From an uncultured Flavihumibacter sp. (GTDB lineage: Bacteria > Bacteroidota > Bacteroidia > Chitinophagales > Chitinophagaceae): 11,084 nucleotides of DNA. The position numbers were made by a program, and so were the translations under genes. The stretch covers positions 1 through 11,084 of the forward strand of contig CAMLPA010000075.1 of assembly GCA_946481605.1 (NCBI GenBank), written 5' to 3'. Below the pieces are notes generated by a model that was not told the DNA's origin, did no database searches, and saw nothing but the letters and a program-made list of their open reading frames with translations. Of the stretch, positions 448 through 11,084 are shown in pieces; the first letter of the stretch is position 1; each line of letters opens with the position of its first letter.

Positions 448-714
448 TTATTCTTCCTCACCCGTATTGAACGCATCCTCACTGTTCACATAAAGTGATT
501 CCCAGGCCTTCACGCTCTTTTCATCCAACAATTCTATAATGTCGAATATGGTGTCCGACTTACGTTTCCAGGAAGAACTTTCCGTGTCTCCATGGTAAGT
601 AATAAACATACAATGATCCGTTTTCAGATTTACCTGAATCATACTCACTACCGCATCCTGTTTCTCCTGTATCAGGTAGTAACAGCCTTTTTCCAAAAGT
701 TCAAAATTGTACAT
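448..714 (-). CDS. Small acidic hypothetical protein, 88 aa
   Basis: A complete 88-residue reading frame from ATG (714) to TAA (448-450). I do not recognise a named family. The sequence looks like a genuine small cytosolic protein: it has no signal peptide or membrane segment and mixes hydrophobic and charged residues evenly. The first half alternates in a way that suggests beta strands (MYNFELLEKGCYYLIQ, then VVSMIQVNL and MFITYHGD). A probable helix follows (IFDIIELLDEKSVKAWESLY), and the acidic tail ends GEEE. It is divergent from parE and may share a leftward transcript with the partial membrane-protein gene 46 bp downstream. Upstream there is a plausible Bacteroidota-type promoter box and a leader that can fold. 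The divergent position next to parE may be conserved in relatives, but that was not checked. Function is unknown. Confidence 0.72.
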   Translation of the reverse strand: MYNFELLEKGCYYLIQEKQDAVVSMIQVNLKTDHCMFITYHGDTESSSWKRKSDTIFDIIELLDEKSVKAWESLYVNSEDAFNTGEEE

Positions 715-1060: not shown

Positions 1061-1151
1061 TTGCCATTTGCTGGAAGTATTGCATAATTTTTCCTGTAAA
1101 TGCTTAATAATTACGAATTTGTAGCGCATTCAAAAAAAGGTGAACCAGTAT

Positions 1152-3041
1152 ATGGCAGAAAAAAACACATCGAATTACACGGAAGATTCCATTAAAAGTC
1201 TGGACTGGCGCGAACACATTCGTTTGCGACCTGGGATGTATATCGGAAAACTGGGAGATGGTTCCAGTCCTGACGATGGTATTTATGTACTCGTAAAAGA
1301 GGTGATTGATAACTGTATCGATGAACACATGATGGGATTTGGAAAGCAGGTGGAAATCACGATTGAAAATAAGACTGTTACCATACGCGATTATGGAAGA
1401 GGAATTCCGCTGGGAAAACTGGTGGATGTGGTGAGTAAAATCAATACCGGCGCGAAATACGATAGTAAAGCATTCCAGAAAAGTGTTGGACTGAACGGTG
1501 TGGGTACCAAAGCGGTAAATGCACTCAGCAATTACTTTATGGTACAGAGTTTCAGGGATGGCAAAACAAGGGTGGCGGAATTCGAGAAAGGGGTACTTAT
1601 AAAAGAACATAAAGAGACTGCCACGAAAGAAGAAAATGGCACATTGGTCAGCTTTGTTCCTGACGATACGATTTTCAGGCATTTTCATTTTATTCATGAA
1701 TACCTGGACAAACAAATATGGAACTATTGCTTTCTGAATGCGGGACTTGTCCTGAGTTTCAACGGTAAAAAATACGTGAGCCGGAACGGCCTGCTGGATT
1801 TGCTTACAAGGAACACCAACCCGGACGAACTGCGGTACCCGATCATTCACCTGAAAGGAGAGGACATCGAAGTGGCCATTACCCATAACAATGATTACGG
1901 GGAAGATATTTATTCCTTTGTGAACGGCCAGTTTACTACCCAGGGCGGTACACACCAACAGGCGTTCAGAGAATCGTTCGTGAAAACGGTGCGCGAGTTC
2001 TTTAAAAAAGATTACGAACCCTCGGATATCAGGGGAAGCATCTGTGCGGCAGTGGCGGTTCGGGTGCAGGAGCCGGTTTTTGAGTCACAGACCAAAACAA
2101 AACTGGGTTCACTGAATGTAGCTGAAGGCGGGCAAAGCATGAAGAACTTTATTGGAGAGTTCCTCGCCAAACACCTGGATGATTACCTGCACAAGAATCC
2201 CACCGTAGCGGAAGCGTTGAAAAAGAGGATCGAACAAAGCGAGCGCGAAAGAAAGGAACTTAGCGGTATACGCAAGCTGGCAAATGAAAGGGCCAAAAAA
2301 GCGAACCTCCACAATAAAAAATTACGGGATTGCAGGTACCACCTGAATGATGAAGCCCCCGCAAAAAATAAAGAAGAATTTGAACAAAAGAAACTGGAGA
2401 GTACCATCTTTATTACGGAAGGGGATTCCGCGAGCGGCTCCATTACAAAGGCAAGAAACGTAGAACTACAGGCCGTTTTCAGTTTGCGCGGAAAGCCATT
2501 GAACTGTTTCGGACTCACCAAGAAAGTAGTATATGAGAACGAGGAATTCAACCTTCTTCAACACGCCCTGAACATCGAAGCTGGCATAGACGAATTGCGG
2601 TACAATAATATTGTAATCGCTACCGATGCTGATGTGGATGGGATGCATATCCGGTTACTGCTGATGACCTTCTTCCTGCAATTTTTCCCGGATCTTGTTA
2701 AAAACGGACACGTTTACATCCTGGAAACGCCTTTGTTCAGGGTCAGGAACAAACAGGAAACCATCTATTGTTATGATGAAAGCGAGAAACAGGCTGCTGT
2801 AAAGAAACTCGGTGGCAAACCTGAGATCACGCGGTTCAAAGGTTTGGGTGAAATCTCTCCCGATGAGTTCGGAAGATTTATAGGTGAAGATATCCGTCTT
2901 CAACCAGTGATGGTTATGCCGGAGACGCATATCACACAACTCCTTGAATACTTTATGGGGAAAAATACCCCGCAACGGCAGGAGTTTATTATAGACAACC
3001 TGAAAGTAGAATTGGATATCGTGAACGAAAACCTGAATTAA
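1152..3041 (+). CDS. parE: DNA topoisomerase IV subunit B
   Basis: This is the ATPase and TOPRIM subunit of a type IIA topoisomerase, 629 residues from the chosen ATG. The N-terminal GHKL ATPase has the catalytic Glu and Mg-binding Asn in [10 protein letters not shown] (E50, N54), the DYGRGIP motif at 80-86 and the ATP-lid motif GLNGVGTK at 113-120. The transducer has the ATP-sensing QTK loop at 313-315. The TOPRIM domain carries EGDSA (423-427), SLRGKPLN (444-451), the acidic DADVDG triad (492-497) and RFKGLGE (561-567). Length fits ParE/GyrB proteins that lack the proteobacterial insert. Pairing with a ParC-type subunit in the same gene run favours topoisomerase IV over gyrase. The ATG at 1152 follows AAGG at 1137-1140; a GTG at 1140 would add four residues and is less likely. 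DUF1835 follows after 9 bp. Confidence 0.93.
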
Positions 3042-3050
3042 GCGATTGAA

Positions 3051-3902
3051 ATGATTCATATAGTTTTTAATGAGGCAGATGTAGCCATCCTGGAAAAAGC
3101 GATTGAGACCAATGAGGACCTCGAAGGGAAAGTGGTTCAAATAAAAGACGATTATGCAGTTGGGCCCTTACTGAATGGGTATCTTGGAGAAGGTCGCGCG
3201 CTGCGCAATGAATGGTGGAAAACATTACTGACCGGTACTGAATATGAGGGAAAAACGGAATCTGGGGAAGTCGATGACTTTAAAACCGTGGCCGAATTGT
3301 CCGGTACCATGAGCCGGGACGAAAACGAAAAGATCTGGATATGGATGGCCCAGAACCAGCATGATGTATGCGGGTACTACTGGTTGCTTCATTTTCTGAA
3401 ACAATTCCAGGGACGGGTATTCGTATTGTACCTGAATAACCTTCCATTTATCAATGAAAAGGGAGGCATATTTTATCCTTCATGGATCAGTGAAATTCCC
3501 GTTTCGGAATTCAGGAAAGCGAAAAAACTCGCCCGGGTGATCACCCCAAGCGAATTGGAAGTTGATCCTGATGAATGGAAAAAACTTTCAGAAGAAAATG
3601 GGTTGGTGCGCATACTGGAAGGCGGCAAAAAAATCGTGACCAAAGAAGCGGATTTTTACGACAAAGACATTCTTTCGAACTGCACCTCTGATTGGCAAAA
3701 AGCGCAACGGGTGATCAACAATACCCTGAACAGGATGAAAATCAAAACCGGGGACGTTTTCCTCGGATGGCGGTTGAAAGAACTTGCCGGCAACGGAAAA
3801 CTTGAGGTGAATGGGGATATGAACAGGCCCTGGAAGGAATTCGAGGTGAAACTTCCGGGAAGCGGCGGCGGTAATGTAAGTGAGCAGGAGGCGGGGGGAT
3901 AA
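3051..3902 (+). CDS. DUF1835/DUF3658 domain protein
   Basis: A 283-residue protein with the two-domain plan of the DUF1835 family. The N-terminal part (about 1-155) begins with the family-like strand MIHIVFNEAD and contains DDYAVGPL at 33-40, a hallmark of DUF1835. The C-terminal part (about 183-268) matches DUF3658, with WQKAQRVINNTLNR (215-228), then DVFLGWRLKEL (235-245) and FEVKLPG (264-270). There is no signal peptide or membrane segment, so it is probably cytosolic. The biochemical function of the family is unknown. The usual G[DE]S after the first strand is replaced by NEAD, so this copy may differ from the family norm; that is a judgement from memory. The end of the protein is a Gly/Ser-rich tail encoded by G-rich DNA. 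It starts 9 bp after parE, so the two are almost certainly co-transcribed. The family assignment is firm, the role is not. Confidence 0.87.
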   Translation: MIHIVFNEADVAILEKAIETNEDLEGKVVQIKDDYAVGPLLNGYLGEGRALRNEWWKTLLTGTEYEGKTESGEVDDFKTVAELSGTMSRDENEKIWIWMAQNQHDVCGYYWLLHFLKQFQGRVFVLYLNNLPFINEKGGIFYPSWISEIPVSEFRKAKKLARVITPSELEVDPDEWKKLSEENGLVRILEGGKKIVTKEADFYDKDILSNCTSDWQKAQRVINNTLNRMKIKTGDVFLGWRLKELAGNGKLEVNGDMNRPWKEFEVKLPGSGGGNVSEQEAGG

Positions 3903-3953: not shown

Positions 3954-4343
3954 ATGAAACTGCTGGGCATCCACCACATCGCTATACTGACGGACGATTA
4001 CGAAACAAGTAAAAAGTTTTACACGGAACTGCTTGGCTTTAAGGTGGTGGCAGAAACTTACAGGGAAACCAGAGATTCCTGGAAACTGGACCTGGCTTTG
4101 GATGACCGGTACATGATTGAACTTTTTTCTTTTCCGAATTTCCGGGAAAGAGCTTCATTCCCGGAAGCGAAGGGGTTGCGTCATCTGGCGTTTTCCGTGG
4201 AAGATGTGGCGGAAGCAAGGTCTTTTCTGCTGGCAAATGGCGTAGAAAAAGTGGAAGAAATTAGAGTGGATGAATTGACAGGTAAGAAGTTCCTGTTCTT
4301 TTATGACCCAAATGGTCAACCACTGGAATTATACGAAACCTGA
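3954..4343 (+). CDS. VOC-family metalloprotein, YaeR/GloA2-like
   Basis: A 129-residue single-domain protein of the vicinal oxygen chelate superfamily, which includes glyoxalase I. It opens with MKLLGIHHIAI and shows two beta-alpha-beta-beta-beta modules. The four expected metal ligands are present in order: H8, E56 (in MIELFSF), H77 (in LRHLAFSV) and E125 (in PLELYE). The sequence is closest in my recollection to the YaeR / SMU.1112c subgroup, whose substrate is not established, rather than to classical lactoylglutathione lyase. It has no signal peptide, so it should be cytosolic. It starts 51 bp after the DUF1835 gene and ends 7 bp before the adenylation gene, so it may be the first gene of the acylation module or simply a passenger. 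A role in detoxifying a dicarbonyl is possible but not shown. Confidence 0.88.
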   Translation: MKLLGIHHIAILTDDYETSKKFYTELLGFKVVAETYRETRDSWKLDLALDDRYMIELFSFPNFRERASFPEAKGLRHLAFSVEDVAEARSFLLANGVEKVEEIRVDELTGKKFLFFYDPNGQPLELYET

Positions 4344-4350
4344 CACCAAG

Positions 4351-5838
4351 ATGGAGAAAGAAGTGTATGCGCGTAAGGGCTGGCTGGACCGTTATTTAGG
4401 TTGGGTGAAAACGCGACCTGATGCTGTGGCTTTCCAAACCTATGATGCAGCTATTTCTTATGCGGCTTTCCATGAGCGGGTACTGCTTTATGCCAGGGAA
4501 TTCATGAAGCTGGAAATGGAAAGTATTGCTGTGTTGGCAACCGGTTCGGTGGAGATGAACGCATGTATACTGGCATCCTTCTTATTGGAGAAAACAATTG
4601 TTCCAATACATCCTGAATGGCCGTTAACCAGGCAGGTATTTGCGTTGGATGAAAGCAGGGCAGGTGTGGTTGTTTCCCCTGATAATATGCCACTGGCTGA
4701 AGCACTGACAGCTCCAAATCGGAAAGTTGTTTTCCCGAAAGATTTTGAGGGCATAGGCGGTTCTGTTGATCTTCCGTCTTTTGATGCGGCTTCAAGTGAG
4801 AAGCCCGCATACATCCTCTTTACCTCAGGAAGTACCGGCAAGCCCAAAGGAGTTCCGGTGCCATTTCGGTGTTTGCATGCTTTTAAGGAATATTATCTGA
4901 ATGACCCGCGGTATGGGTTTTCTTCGGCAGACAGGTTCCTTCAGGTGTATGACGCAACATTTGATGTGTTCTACTTCCCTTTCTTAATCGCGCTGGAAAC
5001 AGGTGGAACATGTTGTCTCCTGCCGCCGAAAAAACAAATCAGGTCGTTGCTGATCCTGGAAGCTTTGCTTTTCTACAATACTACGGTGCTGAGCATGGTA
5101 CCTACTGTGCTTCAGATAGTAAAGGGACTTATTAAGGGAATGTCTTTCCCGGCACTGAGGCTGAGTTTTTTTTCCGGAGATATTTTGTACCGGCACCTGG
5201 CCGAAACATGGGAAAATGCCTGCCACAACGCGGTCATTTATAACTGTTACGGTCCTACTGAAACAACAATCGTGTGTACCGCATTTTGTTGGAACGAAGA
5301 AAAAAACAGTACAACGCATCCGGTCGTTCCAATGGGGTTTCCTTTTCCTGGTACTACTGTTGCGGTGATCAATGATGGTACACTGTGCGAAACCGGTGAA
5401 ACCGGAGAATTATTTTTAAAGGGCGCGCAGGTCTTTAATGGGTATCTGGGCAATGGCGAAAATTGTTTACAGGATGGCTGGTTTCCTTCGGGCGATCTGG
5501 TGCACCAGGATGAGCGGGGATGCCTGCACTTTCATGGAAGAAAAGATTTCCAGGTAAAGATTGGCGGCTACCGCATAGAGATGGAGGAGGTTGCCATTAA
5601 AGTAAGTCATGTATTGCAAAAAGAAGTGGTGGTAATCGCACACAGAGACCAGGAGGGCAACAACACATTAGTCGCTTTTGTAAAAGGCGCCGCTCCGGTA
5701 GATACTGCCTCGTTGAGTAGCCAACTGAAGGAATTACTCCCCGCTTACATGATCCCGGGAAAATACAGGAGCATTGAAGAATGGCCTTACAACAACAATG
5801 GAAAAATTGACCGCCAGCAACTAATCGCATTATTATGA
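4351..5838 (+). CDS. Stand-alone amino-acid adenylation enzyme, DltA-like
   Basis: A 495-residue member of the ANL superfamily, about the size of DltA. It should activate an amino acid with ATP and transfer it to the carrier protein encoded next. Core motifs are in order: A3 P-loop LFTSGSTGKPKGV (156-168), A4 region with YDAT (D201), A5 YNCYGPTE (297-304), A6 GELFLKGAQVFNGYLG (352-367), A7 SGD (380-382), A8 GRKDFQVKIGGYRIE (396-410) and A10 NGKID with the catalytic Lys (K485). D201 aligns with the Asp that binds the alpha-amino group in GrsA and DltA, so an alpha-amino acid is the likely substrate; which one cannot be read reliably. There is no condensation or thioesterase domain. The ATG at 4351 lies 7 bp after the VOC stop; an upstream in-frame ATG at 4303 would overlap the VOC gene. 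The stop overlaps the ACP start as ATGA. Confidence 0.88.
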   Translation: MEKEVYARKGWLDRYLGWVKTRPDAVAFQTYDAAISYAAFHERVLLYAREFMKLEMESIAVLATGSVEMNACILASFLLEKTIVPIHPEWPLTRQVFALDESRAGVVVSPDNMPLAEALTAPNRKVVFPKDFEGIGGSVDLPSFDAASSEKPAYILFTSGSTGKPKGVPVPFRCLHAFKEYYLNDPRYGFSSADRFLQVYDATFDVFYFPFLIALETGGTCCLLPPKKQIRSLLILEALLFYNTTVLSMVPTVLQIVKGLIKGMSFPALRLSFFSGDILYRHLAETWENACHNAVIYNCYGPTETTIVCTAFCWNEEKNSTTHPVVPMGFPFPGTTVAVINDGTLCETGETGELFLKGAQVFNGYLGNGENCLQDGWFPSGDLVHQDERGCLHFHGRKDFQVKIGGYRIEMEEVAIKVSHVLQKEVVVIAHRDQEGNNTLVAFVKGAAPVDTASLSSQLKELLPAYMIPGKYRSIEEWPYNNNGKIDRQQLIALL

Positions 5839-6098
5839 ACTTAAAATCAAAAGAGGAAATTTTAGCTGAAGTAAGTGGCGTGCTGAGAAAATTACTGGAT
5901 CAGCCCGAACTTATTGTGACTTCCGAAACAAGCGCGGACCAGGTGGAAGGTTGGGATTCACTCACACACATGTCCATCATCAGCGAAGTGGAGGCTGTTT
6001 TTAATATTGAATTCAGGTTCAATGAAATTATGCAGATGGAAAAATTAGGAGACATGGTAGATATTATCGCTGAAAAAATTGCCGGGAATGCCGTTTAA
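5835..6098 (+). CDS. Acyl/aminoacyl carrier protein, DltC-like
   Basis: An 87-residue acidic helical carrier protein. The phosphopantetheine attachment site is S42 in EGWDSLTHMSII, the typical DSL motif at the start of helix 2. Helix 1 is about residues 5-22 and helix 4 about 70-84. The start overlaps the stop of the adenylation gene by four bases (ATGA), a classic arrangement for translational coupling. Its own end overlaps the start of the MBOAT gene. It most likely receives an aminoacyl group as a thioester from the preceding enzyme and presents it to the membrane acyltransferase, as DltC does between DltA and DltB. It differs from housekeeping fatty-acid ACP in context and in lacking the usual DSLDTVE-type sequence. 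Confidence 0.9.
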   Translation: MNLKSKEEILAEVSGVLRKLLDQPELIVTSETSADQVEGWDSLTHMSIISEVEAVFNIEFRFNEIMQMEKLGDMVDIIAEKIAGNAV

Positions 6099-7479
6099 CT
6101 CCCTTTCATATTTACTTTTTCTGGCGGCTACAGCAGGGATATTTTCCCTGTTGAAGTCAGGTAGGACACAGCAACTGTGGCTTTTGTTTGCCGGGTGTGT
6201 GTTTGTGGGGTATTTCAGTTGGATTTCACTGGTGGCAATACTCGTGATCACTTCAGGCAACTTTATGTTGATGCGACGGTATGCAAGCGCAGGGGAGGTG
6301 GGTTCAAAAAAAACGCTCTTTACTATAGCCCTGACATTAAACATGTTGCTGTTGCTGGGTTATAAATATATGCAGGAGTATCTGGGGATGAATGAATGGC
6401 TGCTCCTGGGCATAGGCTTCTACACCCTGCAGCACGTGGGCAACTGGATAGCGATTCATTTCACCGGGTATGATTCCTCAAAGCAGCGAAACAGTTATTT
6501 TCTCTCGGTACTTTTTTTTCCGAAAATACCATCGGGTCCTTTGCTGTCGGCAAAAGAAGTGCAACTTTTTCAGTCGGAAGCAAAATACATTACCCGAAAA
6601 AAAGATGTGATTTATGCAGTAAACCGCATCACCCTTGGACTGGTAAAAAAGATGGTGATTGCAGACAGGCTCTTGCCCTTTGTGCAGGAAATATTTGATA
6701 AACATACTGCATTGTCTGTATTCGATATTTACATGGGATCAGTGTTGTTTACGATCCAGTTGTATGCGGATTTCTCAGGTTATATAGACATCGCGCTTGG
6801 TTCCGCAAGGTTATTCGGCATCGCTCTTCCCGAAAATTTCCAACTGCCGCTGCGGGCACAGTCCGTTACGGCTTTCTGGCGCAAATGGCACATAACATTG
6901 GTGGCCTGGCTGCGGAATTATATTTTCCAACCGGTTGCATTTGCATACAGGAAATCTCCTTACGGCCTGTATCTGGCAATTGGCGTCACTTTCCTCGTCA
7001 GTGCCTTATGGCATGGACTGACCATTACGTTCTTTATATGGGCCCTGTTTCATTTTGTGTACCTGGCTGTAGAAAAAAAAGCAGGAACTGCCAGCAAAGA
7101 AGGCAAAACTTTTTTCGGGAAACTGATCCGCGCTTTTGTAGTGTTGAACCTGGTTTCCGTAGCCCATTTTTTCTTCCGGGCGGGAAGCTGGAAAGGACTT
7201 ACAATACTTTCAAAACAACTGGTTGAACTTCCGGTTTTGCTTCCCGAAGGAGCAGCATTGAAAACCTGGTTGATTAACGGGGGACGATATATAGAGGACA
7301 CGATGAACATCAGGCTCGGAATGGTGCTCGCGGCAGGACTACTTTTTTTCGAACACCGCATCGATAAATATGCTAAGAGTGAAGAATTACATATTGCCTA
7401 CTCCGTTTTGATGTTGTTTCTTCTGCTGTCCATTGGTATATTCGACGCTGGTGAAAGGTTCATTTATATGCAGTTCTGA
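6088..7479 (+). CDS. MBOAT-family membrane O-acyltransferase, DltB/AlgI-like
   Basis: A 463-residue polytopic membrane protein with roughly ten or more hydrophobic segments. The MBOAT signature region is clear: YADFSGYIDIALG (226-238), then FWRKWHITLVAWLRNYIFQP (263-282) with H268, and SALWHGLT (305-312) with H309, the almost invariant MBOAT histidine in a membrane segment. It also has FFPKIPSGPLL (143-153), corresponding to the FP..aGP stretch of AlgI/DltB. Such enzymes move an acyl group from a cytoplasmic donor to an extracytoplasmic hydroxyl acceptor. The preceding adenylation enzyme and carrier protein suggest an aminoacyl donor, as for DltB, rather than acetyl groups. The ATG at 6088 overlaps the ACP gene by 11 bp; a TTG three codons earlier is less likely. 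The next gene starts one base after the stop. The gene contains three eight-base homopolymer runs (6306-6313, 6512-6519, 7073-7080). Confidence 0.9.
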   Translation: MPFNSLSYLLFLAATAGIFSLLKSGRTQQLWLLFAGCVFVGYFSWISLVAILVITSGNFMLMRRYASAGEVGSKKTLFTIALTLNMLLLLGYKYMQEYLGMNEWLLLGIGFYTLQHVGNWIAIHFTGYDSSKQRNSYFLSVLFFPKIPSGPLLSAKEVQLFQSEAKYITRKKDVIYAVNRITLGLVKKMVIADRLLPFVQEIFDKHTALSVFDIYMGSVLFTIQLYADFSGYIDIALGSARLFGIALPENFQLPLRAQSVTAFWRKWHITLVAWLRNYIFQPVAFAYRKSPYGLYLAIGVTFLVSALWHGLTITFFIWALFHFVYLAVEKKAGTASKEGKTFFGKLIRAFVVLNLVSVAHFFFRAGSWKGLTILSKQLVELPVLLPEGAALKTWLINGGRYIEDTMNIRLGMVLAAGLLFFEHRIDKYAKSEELHIAYSVLMLFLLLSIGIFDAGERFIYMQF

Positions 7480-7480
7480 T

Positions 7481-8449
7481 ATGAGTACTGGGAGAAAAAT
7501 ATTATTTATTCTGATTACGCTTGCAGCGCTGCTGATTGTGTTTCCCGTATTTATGCGGGAAGGGATTATTCATAACCGCAACTATAAGCCGGGGTATATT
7601 CTTTCCAGCCGGATTGATGCTGATATCGTTTACCTTGGAGCCTGCGAGCCGGAGTGGGGCATATTGCCTGATTCAGTAAAGAAATATTCGGGCCATACAA
7701 ATTTTATTCTTGGCCAGTTTGGCGCTGACTACGCGGAAAATTTTCTGATGGTAAGATCATATCTGACACACCAAAAGAAACCAGAACTTGTTGTCATCTT
7801 CGCAACCCCGGAATCATTTGATGAGTCAATTGCCAATGGATTCAACAGCTACAGGTTTGCACACCTTGATTCTGATGATACTATCAGAAGCATTATCAGG
7901 GACTTTGACGCGCCTTATGAAAAATGGATGCACCTCCCTTTCATGCGCTATTCCTGGTACGCGAACCATACTTTCTTTAAAAGCATTTTAGGGTGGGGAG
8001 ATAAGTTTAGAAAAAAGAATGCGTTGGATACCACAACAGGGGCCGGCATTTTCCCTATTCCTTTTGAGCCGGGTAAAGATGCGGTTATTGTACACGGTGC
8101 ACCAGCAAAGGATTTTCAATGGAGTAATAGAAGAGCAAAATATTTTTCGCAATTGATCAGTTTTCTTCAGCAGCGAAATATTCCGGTACTGCTTTATGAA
8201 TCACCACTTTGGGAAAAAGGAGAGATGCTCCGTCATAACCGGAACGAAATGGTTGCAAAAATTGATTCAATAGCGGCGGTTTATAAAGTTCCTTTCAAAA
8301 AATTCGAAAACAAAGCAATAAGTTCAGACAGTACCAATTTCTTTACCATCACCAACCTCAGCCACAAGGCGACAGGATGGTTCAGCAAAGAACTAGGCGT
8401 TTACATGCGAGACAGTTTGCATTATCTTTACCCCGACGAATTCAAATAA
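7481..8449 (+). CDS. Membrane-anchored SGNH-like protein, DltD-like position
   Basis: A 322-residue protein with one N-terminal hydrophobic segment (about 6-24) after MSTGRK, so probably an inner-membrane anchor with the rest outside the cytoplasm. The fold resembles SGNH/DltD proteins that accompany MBOAT enzymes. The first block is DIVYLGACEPEWGI (48-61), the second ILGQFGADYAENFLMVRSYL (76-95), followed by the strand PELVVIFATPESFD (101-114). The last block is TNLSHKATGWFSKEL (291-305) with the His of the usual DxxH motif (H295). Two expected catalytic residues differ: C55 stands where the nucleophilic Ser of GSS is expected, and N292 where the Asp of DxxH is expected. It may use Cys, or be a non-catalytic partner. 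The ATG at 7481 is one base after the MBOAT stop. Overall similarity to DltD is weak, and the assignment relies on motif order plus context. Confidence 0.75.
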   Translation: MSTGRKILFILITLAALLIVFPVFMREGIIHNRNYKPGYILSSRIDADIVYLGACEPEWGILPDSVKKYSGHTNFILGQFGADYAENFLMVRSYLTHQKKPELVVIFATPESFDESIANGFNSYRFAHLDSDDTIRSIIRDFDAPYEKWMHLPFMRYSWYANHTFFKSILGWGDKFRKKNALDTTTGAGIFPIPFEPGKDAVIVHGAPAKDFQWSNRRAKYFSQLISFLQQRNIPVLLYESPLWEKGEMLRHNRNEMVAKIDSIAAVYKVPFKKFENKAISSDSTNFFTITNLSHKATGWFSKELGVYMRDSLHYLYPDEFK

Positions 8450-8456
8450 CAAGTGT

Positions 8457-10976
8457 ATGAGCAAGGAAAATTACGACGCACAGGAAAAGAATGAAAAAGA
8501 AACCGGCGTACAGAGCCAGTACAAAACCTGGTTCCTGGATTACGCTTCTTATGTGATTCTGGAAAGGGCCGTACCCGCTATTGAAGATGGCCTGAAGCCC
8601 GTTCAACGCAGGATACTCCACGCCATGAAGGAAATGGATGACGGGCGTTACAATAAAGTGGCCAACATCATCGGCCAAAGTATGCAGTACCATCCCCATG
8701 GCGACGCTTCCATAGGAGATGCACTGGTGAATATGGGACAAAAAGACCTGCTGATAGATACGCAGGGCAACTGGGGCGATGTGCGTACCGGAGATGACGC
8801 TGCCGCCGCAAGGTATATTGAGGCACGCCTGAGCAAATTCGCGCTGGATGTGGTTTTCAACAATAAAACCACGGAATGGCAACTCAGTTATGATGGCCGT
8901 AAGAACGAGCCCGTAACCTTACCCGTCAAGTTTCCGTTGCTACTCGCACAGGGCGCGGATGGTATTGCGGTTGGTTTGTCTACCAAAATTCTGCCCCACA
9001 ATTTTTGTGAGATCATAGAAGCGGCCATTAAACACCTTCGGGGAAAGAAGTTTGAGTTGTACCCTGATTTTCTTACCGGTGGAATGATTGATGTAACCAA
9101 CTACAACGACGGCAAACGCGGTGGAAAAGTAAGGGTACGCGCCAACATTGAAGAGCTGGACAAGAAAACCCTGATCATCCGCAATGTGCCCTACGGCGTA
9201 ACCACCTCCTCACTCATTGATTCTATCCTGAAGGCCAACGATCAGGGTAAAATCAAAATCAAAAAAGTGACCGACAATACCGCCGCCGATGTGGAAATTA
9301 TGGTTGACCTGGCGCCCGGAATTTCTCCAGATATCACGATCGACGCGCTTTATGCGTTTACCGATTGTGAAGTGAGCATTTCACCCAATGCCTGCGTGAT
9401 TGTCGACAATAAACCCAGGTTCCTCGGCGCCCATGATCTGCTGGTGCACTCCGCGGATCAGACCCGGGACCTGCTGAAAAAAGAACTGGAAATCAAACTC
9501 GGTGAACTACAGGAGAAATGGCATTATACTTCATTGGAGAAAATATTCTTCGAAGAGAAAATCTATAAGGAACTCGAAAAGAAACATGAAACCTGGGATA
9601 AAGTAATCGAAGCCATCAACAAAGCTTTCGATCCTTTCAAAAAGAAACTGAAAAGAGACATCACCAGGGAAGATATCGTTAAACTCACGGAGAAACCCGT
9701 AAGAAGAATTTACCGCCTGGATATTGATGAATTGAATGAACAGATTAAAGGACTCGAAGCCGATATCAAACAGGTAGAATACGACCTGGAGCACATCACG
9801 GATTTCACCATTTCCTATTTTGAAAACCTGCTTAAAAAGTATGGAAAAGGACGTGAACGCAAAACAGAAATCAAATTATTTGAAGCGATCCAGGCCAAAC
9901 AGGTAGCTATCGCCAATACGAAGTTGTATGTAAACCGTGCCGACGGATTTATCGGTTCCGGGTTGAAAAAAGATGAATTCGTAACCGATTGCTCTGACCT
10001 GGACGATATCATCGCCTTCACCAAATCAGGAAAAATGAAAGTGGTGAAAATGGCTGATAAGGTATTCATTGGTAAAGACATTATCCATATCGCCGTATTC
10101 CAGAAGAACGATGAACGCACCACCTATAATATGATTTATGCGGATGGAAAAAGCGGGATCAGCTATGGAAAACGGTTTAATGTTACCGGTGTTACACGCG
10201 AAAAAGAATATGACCTTACGAAAGGTGATCCCAAATCAAAAGTGCTTTACTTCTCCGTGAATCCGAATGGCGAGGCGGAAGTAGTGAAAGTGTTGTTAAG
10301 TCCGAACTGCAGCGCACGCATCAAAGAACTGGACTTTTATTTTGAAACGCTGGAAATTAAAGGCAGATCAGTATTGGGTAACCAGGTTACCAAATACCCC
10401 ATCAAAAGCGTGAAGTTCAAAGAAGCCGGTAAATCCACACTCAGTGCGCGAAAATTATGGTTCGACGACCAGTTCGGCAGGCTGAATACGGAGGAGAAAG
10501 GCACGTATCTCGGGAGTTTCGATCCTGAAGATAAAATACTGGTTGTGTACAACGATGGCACTTACGAAATCACCGACCAGGAACTCACGCAACGTTTTGA
10601 TGCAGACAAGGTAATGCTGATCCAGCAGTTCAACAATCTACGCATACTCACGGCTATCTACTACGATGCGGTAAAACTTCAGTTCAACATTAAAAGGTTC
10701 AAGATTGAAACAGGTACCCTGAAAACCAGGTTCCTGTTCATCAAGGAAGGAGAGGGCAACTATCTCGCTTCCATCACCACCGATGAACAACCGGTATTGC
10801 TGCTGAAAACAGGTAAAAAATCCGCTCCCGAAATCCAGAAAATCAAGATCGCGGATTTCGTTGAAGTGATGGGCTGGAAAGCCGTGGGCAACAAACTGGT
10901 AGACAAAAAAGCGGTAGATTTTGAATGGGAGAAAAAGGCCGGCAAGGACGATGGGCAACCGGAATTATTTGAATAA
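8457..10976 (+). CDS. parC: DNA topoisomerase IV subunit A
   Basis: The DNA breakage-reunion subunit of a type IIA topoisomerase, 839 residues. The winged-helix region begins with the family stretch [24 protein letters not shown] (29-52). The quinolone-determining segment is [13 protein letters not shown] (78-90). The catalytic tyrosine is Y120, with R119 before it, in [14 protein letters not shown] (112-125). A tower domain follows to about 330, then a long coiled-coil arm with [20 protein letters not shown] (425-444). The C-terminal part from about 485 has beta-pinwheel-like blades. The canonical GyrA box QRRGGKG is absent; [10 protein letters not shown] (569-578) occupies a comparable place. 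That absence and the partner parE favour topoisomerase IV. The ATG lies 7 bp after the SGNH-like gene, so it is probably on the same transcript. The extreme C-terminus, QPELFE, resembles a sliding-clamp-binding peptide. The Ala at residue 84 replaces the Ser often linked to quinolone binding. Confidence 0.93.
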
Positions 10977-10990
10977 TTTATGTAATTCGC

Positions 10991-11007
10991 CATCCCAAAT
11001 CGGGATG
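10991..11007 (+). repeat. Hairpin formed by the tRNA leader and acceptor strand
   Basis: CATCCC at 10991-10996 is the reverse complement of GGGATG at 11002-11007, the 5' acceptor strand of tRNA-Pro, and identical to the tRNA 3' acceptor strand at 11067-11072. An alternative six-pair hairpin with a five-base loop is therefore possible in the precursor. There is no T-run, so it is not a typical terminator for parC. Confidence 0.5.
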
Positions 11008-11074
11008 TAGCGCAGCCCGGTAGCGCGCTTCGTTCGGGACGAAGAGGCCGCTGGTTCGAATCCAGTCATCCCGA
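11001..11074 (+). tRNA. tRNA-Pro (anticodon CGG)
   Basis: A full 74-base cloverleaf can be drawn. The acceptor CGGGATG (11001-11007) pairs with CATCCCG (11067-11073), with A as the discriminator at 11074. The D stem is GCGC/GCGC (11010-11013, 11023-11026) and the anticodon stem is CTTCG/CGAAG (11028-11032, 11040-11044). The loop TTCGGGA has anticodon CGG at 11035-11037, which reads the proline codon CCG. The variable loop has five bases, and the T arm GCTGG/CCAGT with loop TTCGAAT closes with one G-U pair. CCA is not encoded and must be added after transcription. It lies 24 bases after the parC stop with no terminator between. Confidence 0.95.
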
Positions 11075-11084
11075 CAGCATTCAG

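Follow-up and report, generated by a model that had tools for sequence, protein, structure and literature searches.

A dlt-like gene module of an uncultured Flavihumibacter whose DltD-fold terminal protein has cysteine in place of the catalytic serine

We analysed a stretch of 11 084 nucleotides from an uncultured Flavihumibacter sp. of the Bacteroidota (contig CAMLPA010000075.1), referred to below as the window. It carries a module of four genes (positions 4351-8449, forward strand) which encode a stand-alone adenylation enzyme, a carrier protein, an MBOAT acyltransferase and a predicted membrane-anchored protein. As judged from alignments, the last of these, here called the terminal protein, is a member of an unnamed family in which the catalytic serine of SGNH enzymes is replaced by cysteine and the histidine of block V is lost. 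The conserved cysteine with its missing partner histidine suggests an altered chemistry for the decoration of the cell envelope with amino acids.

An earlier note on this DNA had described four consecutive genes, joined by a 4 bp overlap, an 11 bp overlap and a 1 bp gap and placed between the topoisomerase IV genes parE and parC. Open reading frames (ORFs), sequence, Pfam matches and structure model bear out the four genes (Table 1). The junctions are as claimed, provided that the MBOAT gene starts with its ATG at 6088 and not with the alternative TTG at 6079, and the module is separated from parE by two further genes. In all four genes the ratio of non-synonymous to synonymous substitutions (dN/dS) is about 0.07-0.12 in comparison with the nearest relative, locus L109 of genome G046; they are thus under purifying selection and not chance ORFs. 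The dlt-like interpretation of the note stands in part. The genes form a compact aminoacyl-transfer module which would work like Dlt, but by the curated tests for DltA, DltB and DltD it is not a member of that system, its shuttle motif is fused to the MBOAT protein, and cysteine replaces serine. Likewise, the SGNH-like character proposed for the terminal protein applies to the fold but not to the catalytic residues (Cys55, N292).

A DltD-like fold with cysteine at the nucleophile position

No Pfam family matches the terminal protein above cut-off, the best being Lipase_GDSL_2 at E 0.23. At E ≤ 1 it is matched neither by any NCBIfam model nor by the DltD family PF04914. Above cut-off, PF04914 was found in neither of two related genomes; one weak match (E 0.4) lies elsewhere in G046. 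The AlphaFold model of the terminal protein (predicted local distance difference test score, pLDDT, 88; predicted template modelling score 0.87) contains an N-terminal helix (residues 3-30) followed by an SGNH-type fold. Foldseek returned DltD (6o93) as the top match (E 2e-6, template modelling score 0.50). The predicted structure of the MBOAT protein has the DltB fold.

Direct search for homologues of the terminal protein yielded only four proteins, the window's own among them, and the family was therefore widened via MBOAT loci, of which we examined 18 from 17 genomes. In addition, a profile scan of contigs with the MBOAT alignment gave 80 loci, mostly with other MBOATs, and these were the source of serine-type relatives; among them, a high score for the terminal family of the window was reached only at L001 and L002. 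In the resulting alignment the nucleophile column holds Cys in all 22 family rows (of which P0002 and L091 are apparently one protein) versus Ser in 23 of 23 aligned relatives. Block V, where [DN]-x-x-His is expected, is degenerate: His occupies column 292 in none of the 22 family rows but in all 23 relatives, and column 289 is never Asp in the family, compared with Asp in 18 and Asn in five of the relatives. Six relatives longer than 400 residues, at first left out together with the duplicates L001/L002, were later found to have Ser and His as well, so that both residues are present in 29 of 29 related proteins. These were picked by similarity to a hidden Markov model (HMM) of the cysteine family; 28 adjoin an MBOAT, and the one at L015 (11010-12464) does not. 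Cys55 is invariant across proteins as little as about 26% identical to that of the window.

A cysteine in an SGNH-type nucleophile motif (G-S-C) also occurs in GSCFA (PF08885), an SGNH-superfamily family listed without known activity in PMC9487903. GSCFA proteins were found in five of six genomes searched (L178-L182), but the five sequences read keep D-x-x-H (e.g. EDMVHPN), which is absent in the window family. PF08885 does not match the window protein at E ≤ 1, and HMMs of the window family have no match to the five GSCFA proteins at E ≤ 10. By its motif, GSCFA is possibly a second cysteine-type SGNH lineage in Bacteroidota.

Adenylation enzyme, carrier and MBOAT protein

The adenylation (A) enzyme is matched first by the NCBIfam model TIGR01733 for amino-acid adenylation domains (241 bits, below the cut-off of 317.4). 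The DltA models PRK04813 (204.5 bits, cut-off 476) and TIGR01734 (201.1 bits, cut-off 559.85) come next, and both fail. Among the best 25 of 103 NCBIfam matches, TIGR01733 outranks the fatty-acid and aryl-acid models, and the best acyl-CoA ligase model listed reaches 149 bits. D205 (codon 4963-4965) and K485 are invariant in an alignment of 41 sequences. They match D235 and K517 of GrsA by position and would be the amino-group-binding Asp and the adenylation Lys; the GrsA columns were assigned here from motifs, and the residue roles are taken from PMC11253843. According to the same source, Asp235 of EntE binds an aryl hydroxyl. Asp at this column is thus not strictly exclusive and alone no proof of an amino acid substrate. 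The NCYGPTE motif and the ranking of models point to an amino acid.

The ten-residue pocket of the window's A domain reads DVFSFSCIVK and is nearly fixed in relatives, with DVFS in 47 and DVFSFSxIVK in 39 of 48 sequences, 40 of which are the window's best matches, a choice that favours likeness. From this near fixation, all members of the A-domain family probably share a single amino acid substrate. An ordinary alpha-amino acid is the probable one, and we see nothing in favour of D-alanine. The Val and Ser of the pocket stand at the columns, as assigned here, of Leu198 and Cys269, which lie in the D-alanine pocket of Bacillus cereus DltA (PMC4176424, PMC11253843), and the two pockets do not look alike. 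The DltA-like protein of Clostridium weizhouense, itself below the model cut-off at 543.8 bits, has the pocket DLTVVVGVAK. A beta-amino acid, considered because of the Val at the A236 column, is not favoured, as the stretch after GPTE aligns without gaps and not with the shortened loop described. The closest named match of the enzyme (73% identity) is from Parasegetibacter sp. NRK P23, another member of the Chitinophagaceae, in support of the Bacteroidota origin of the window; a tblastn search of plasmids with the A domain hit 2624 records, all at less than 60% identity. The carrier protein best resembles acyl carrier protein models in NCBIfam, all below cut-off.

The MBOAT protein reaches 124.3 bits with the curated DltB model TIGR04091 and fails its cut-off of 375. 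Its C-terminus bears FIYMQF, a form of the FxYxxF acyl-shuttle motif described for MBOAT proteins in PMC12148441. The motif is present in 120 of 120 MBOAT homologues listed and at 18 of 18 related loci; the tail itself (residues 455-463) is modelled at low confidence (pLDDT < 50). No separate DltX microprotein was found in the gene run, where the gaps between 4343 and 8457 do not exceed 7 bp.

Proposed pathway and alternatives

We regard it as reasonably probable that the module is a dlt-like system for envelope aminoacylation, in which an amino acid passes via the carrier, Tyr460 of the MBOAT protein and Cys55 to an envelope acceptor. What the data show are the genes with their motifs and predicted folds, their conservation and their linkage; every chemical step is inferred. 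The A domain, with D205 and K485 present, would form the aminoacyl adenylate (aminoacyl-AMP) and load the phosphopantetheine arm of the carrier, as expected from its family. By analogy with PatA and DltB/DltX, the MBOAT protein with His309 would pass the aminoacyl group across the membrane onto its own Tyr460 in the FIYMQF tail. From there the group may move to Cys55 of the anchored DltD-fold protein, as the invariance of the Cys and the loss of the other residues suggest, giving a thioester without an Asp-His pair, and the terminal protein would deliver it to an acceptor beyond the inner membrane. Acyl-tyrosine, being an aryl ester, is energetically close to a thioester, which would make the Tyr-to-Cys step reasonable. 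Cysteine acyltransferases such as Lnt make amides. On this basis we tentatively propose, while thinking it rather doubtful, that the terminal transferase has switched from a Ser-His-Asp site to a His-free Cys site which holds the amino acid as a thioester and transfers it to the amine of an amino sugar, a lipoprotein or an aminolipid. Such a transfer would give stable N-aminoacyl marks on the envelope instead of labile D-alanine esters, and Cys55, if it is an acyl carrier, would represent a second chemistry for the SGNH fold.

The window shares with Gram-positive Dlt (DltA-DltC-DltB-DltX-DltD) the DltB fold, the DltD-like fold and a carrier protein. Apart from failing the DltA and DltB cut-offs and lacking a PF04914 match, it differs in a terminal Cys without Asp/His, in the shuttle motif, which in Dlt is supplied by DltX, and seemingly also in its amino-acid pocket. 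AlmG of Vibrio cholerae is of the lysophospholipid-acyltransferase type, in contrast to the MBOAT and DltD-fold proteins of the window. With AlmEFG, which puts glycine on lipid A, the window has in common a stand-alone A domain and a carrier in a Gram-negative bacterium (PMC11253843, PMC12930378). PatA/PatB resembles it in an MBOAT with a C-terminal extension ending in FxYxxF, a conserved His and a separate anchored partner, but uses acyl-CoA without a carrier protein (PMC12148441), whereas the window encodes a carrier and an A domain. The partner in that system has the SGNH Ser and the block V His, neither of which occurs in any of the 22 family rows. The Bordetella dra locus, likened here by its description, provides a Dlt-like function in a Gram-negative and is required for incorporation of D-alanine into the outer membrane (PMC9858536). 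In the open-access literature we found nothing on point for such a system in Bacteroidetes/Bacteroidota.

To follow the gene set, we surveyed genomes for the MBOAT subfamily (E ≤ 1e-115). It occurs in at least one of 394 genomes in the family of G002 (best four candidates per genome scored), four of 12 in the family of G003 and at least 16 in a sample of 395 from the class. In the two larger surveys and in that of the A family, the three to four best candidates were scored per genome, so that 1/394, 16/395 and, for the A family, 40/395 are lower bounds. An A-family match at the same threshold is present anywhere in the genome in 14 of the 16 subfamily genomes versus at least 26 of 379 others (Fisher P ~1e-13). 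Several of these A genes have another pocket, and the association thus applies to the A family as defined by E ≤ 1e-115, not to a shared pocket; pockets were read in part of the 26 other genomes.

Several observations weigh against the proposed pathway, or against its being common to all members. No His is invariant in the family, and at the column of window position 81, where 17 of 22 rows have His, the window protein does not; activation of Cys55 in the window is therefore unexplained. The four genes, whose co-occurrence the earlier note had proposed to survey, are not a constant set. The cysteine protein directly follows the MBOAT gene at all 18 loci, but the carrier lies upstream of it at 15 of 17 evaluable loci (no carrier adjoins the pair at L124 and L125; L112, whose contig ends in the MBOAT gene, is left out). 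An A domain is adjacent at only eight of 16 (L126, whose contig ends near the carrier, is also left out), and the other eight are without one. Away from the cassette, A genes with the same pocket were found only in G513 and G422; the A gene read in G500, G590, G531 and G670 has a different pocket, that of G561 was not read, and G408 has none at E ≤ 1e-115. At L113 (1655-6444), an FkbH-like protein (PF21211) beside the carrier replaces the A domain next to the same MBOAT/Cys pair. FkbH proteins load glyceryl groups onto carriers, and by analogy this variant may transfer a glyceryl-type group. At L121-L125, none of which has an adjacent A domain, a protein of about 632 residues with GATase domains, which we take to be asparagine-synthase-like, comes after the pair. 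The constant core is thus the MBOAT/Cys pair, with an apparently variable supply of the donor. The donor may differ between members, which argues against one identical pathway in all of them.

The main rival, conceivable but in our view doubtful, is that the terminal protein is a pseudo-enzyme scaffold which presents the acceptor, that the acyl-Tyr of the MBOAT protein reacts directly with this acceptor, and that Cys55 is kept for redox sensing, an intermolecular disulfide or metal. This would agree with the absence of block V Asp and His in all family rows and of an invariant His anywhere in the family. A bare scaffold, however, would not need a Cys that is invariant at the exact nucleophile position in such distant proteins. 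Alternatively, the module might be an orthodox Gram-negative Dlt/Dra system that places D-alanine esters on an outer-membrane component, Cys being a conservative change of nucleophile. Gene order, the DltB and DltD folds and the Bordetella precedent (PMC9858536) are in line with this, but we consider it improbable: the DltA and DltB models stay below their cut-offs, DltD is unmatched, and Val and Ser replace Leu198 and Cys269 of B. cereus DltA (PMC4176424, PMC11253843), although the C. weizhouense protein is also without Cys there. Moreover, other Bacteroidota cassettes in which the two columns hold Leu and Cys (DLMLLCVIFK; see below) pair with Ser/His partners.

It is not very likely that the module makes an aminoacylated lipid or a small secreted molecule instead of decorating a polymer. 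The genes around the related loci vary (subtilase, UbiA, PKD proteins and others), and no glycosyltransferase family match was obtained among 20 representative neighbour proteins scanned, with most neighbours left unscanned. This would suit a lipid or small molecule, as would the use of a related A and carrier pair by AlmEFG to put glycine on lipid A (PMC12930378), but for the MBOAT-SGNH pairs that the PatA paper names, the targets are polymers (PMC12148441). For envelope aminoacylation as proposed above, the changing neighbourhoods point weakly to a general component of the envelope, more than to one capsule, as the acceptor. We give very little credit to activation of a fatty, hydroxy or aryl acid, which would make the module an ordinary O-acylation system. 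The resemblance of the carrier to acyl carrier proteins, FkbH at L113 and the aryl hydroxyl bound by Asp235 of EntE (PMC11253843) could be cited for it. The Asp at the D235 column is nevertheless invariant in the 41 sequences, whereas hydroxy-acid domains have Ala or Gly there and DhbE Asn; aryl-acid domains have an A5 motif other than NCYGPTE (PMC11253843), and the bit scores favour the amino-acid adenylation model.

Related cassettes and genomic setting

Other cassettes of the same overall logic were found in the same class of bacteria. A genes with the pocket DL[MYF]LLC[VM]IFK occur in ten genomes read, and further pockets were seen. Of 13 loci read, seven have a recognised MBOAT and partner; the other six are a lone A domain or have no such pair recognised. 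The cassettes consist of A, often a protein of about 223 residues (presumably GNAT-like, a reading not based on a family search), carrier, MBOAT with a similar tail (one ends FIYFQY) and SGNH partner. They differ from the window in their pockets, in the extra protein of some and in the partner, which is of the Ser/His type in seven of seven. The Cys partner is therefore a trait of the window's subfamily and not of Bacteroidota aminoacylation cassettes generally; G500, G590 and G670 hold both kinds. With such A-carrier-MBOAT cassettes and several predicted pockets in Bacteroidota, carrier-fed aminoacylation of the envelope is probably not confined to Gram-positive bacteria, and in one subfamily the catalytic centre of the last enzyme appears to have been exchanged. 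Should Cys55 prove to be the acyl carrier, an environmental genus would offer a way to test what amino acids are attached to in Gram-negatives, and for what reason.

Individual arrangements vary. Loci L165 (3500-8501), L168 (3471-8308) and L174 (1570-6379) contain A (pockets e.g. DLMLLCVIFK, DVASFTAVWK), a presumably GNAT-like protein of about 220 residues, carrier, FxYxxF MBOAT and Ser/His SGNH protein. At L170 (4984-8118), tandem A domains (DLMYLCTMYK, DFLCFCSVYK) precede one carrier and MBOAT. Of the loci with the Cys partner, L121-L125 are near PKD/CHU_C genes, and four of these five are also near genes of the PorP/SprF cluster.

Table 1. Features of the window
Feature	Position	Strand	Remarks
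parE	1140-3041	+	
DUF1835/DUF3658 gene	3051-3902	+	Between parE and module
VOC/YaeR-like gene	3954-4343	+	Between parE and module
Stand-alone amino-acid adenylation enzyme (DltA-like role)	4351-5838	+	ATG start; 495 residues; PF00501 (AMP-binding) 181.8 bits, cut-off 29.9
Carrier protein (DltC-like role)	5835-6098	+	87 residues; PF00550 (PP-binding) 22.9 bits, cut-off 20.8
Ser42 codon (phosphopantetheine site GWDSL)	5958-5960	+	From sequence
MBOAT acyltransferase	6088-7479	+	463 residues; DltB-fold core (1-376) and C-terminal extension; WHG with His309; Pfam MBOAT 98.5 bits, cut-off 27
FIYMQF (FxYxxF acyl-shuttle motif), Tyr460	7459-7476	+	Fused to MBOAT C-terminus
Terminal protein, predicted membrane-anchored, DltD-like SGNH fold	7481-8449	+	322 residues
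Cys55 codon	7643-7645	+	Column of SGNH nucleophile Ser; sole Cys of the protein
Degenerate block V, T289-I-T-N292	8345-8356	+	[DN]-x-x-His expected
parC	8457-10976	+	Directly after terminal protein gene
tRNA-Pro (cgg)	11001-11075	+	Just past parC

The genes from parE to parC form a single run on the forward strand, with gaps of 9, 51, 7, 1 and 7 bp at the non-overlapping junctions. The setting in the topoisomerase IV gene run does not extend to the family at large: within the stretches fetched, parE and parC flank only one of the 18 related loci (L109), and the setting thus looks lineage-specific. At L109, identity to the window is 98.9% for parE and 98.0% for parC, compared with 73-82% for the module. 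This difference may reflect a recent horizontal replacement of the module, whose synonymous divergence is the higher (dS 1.15-2.06 versus 0.9-1.0 for parE and parC) but near saturation. The guanine plus cytosine content is 40-47% in the module and 45% in parE and parC. For the VOC gene no match was seen at L109. An Rfam scan of the window detected the single tRNA. Upstream of parE, an ORF for 88 residues (448-714, reverse strand) matches nothing in Pfam or NCBIfam at E ≤ 1.

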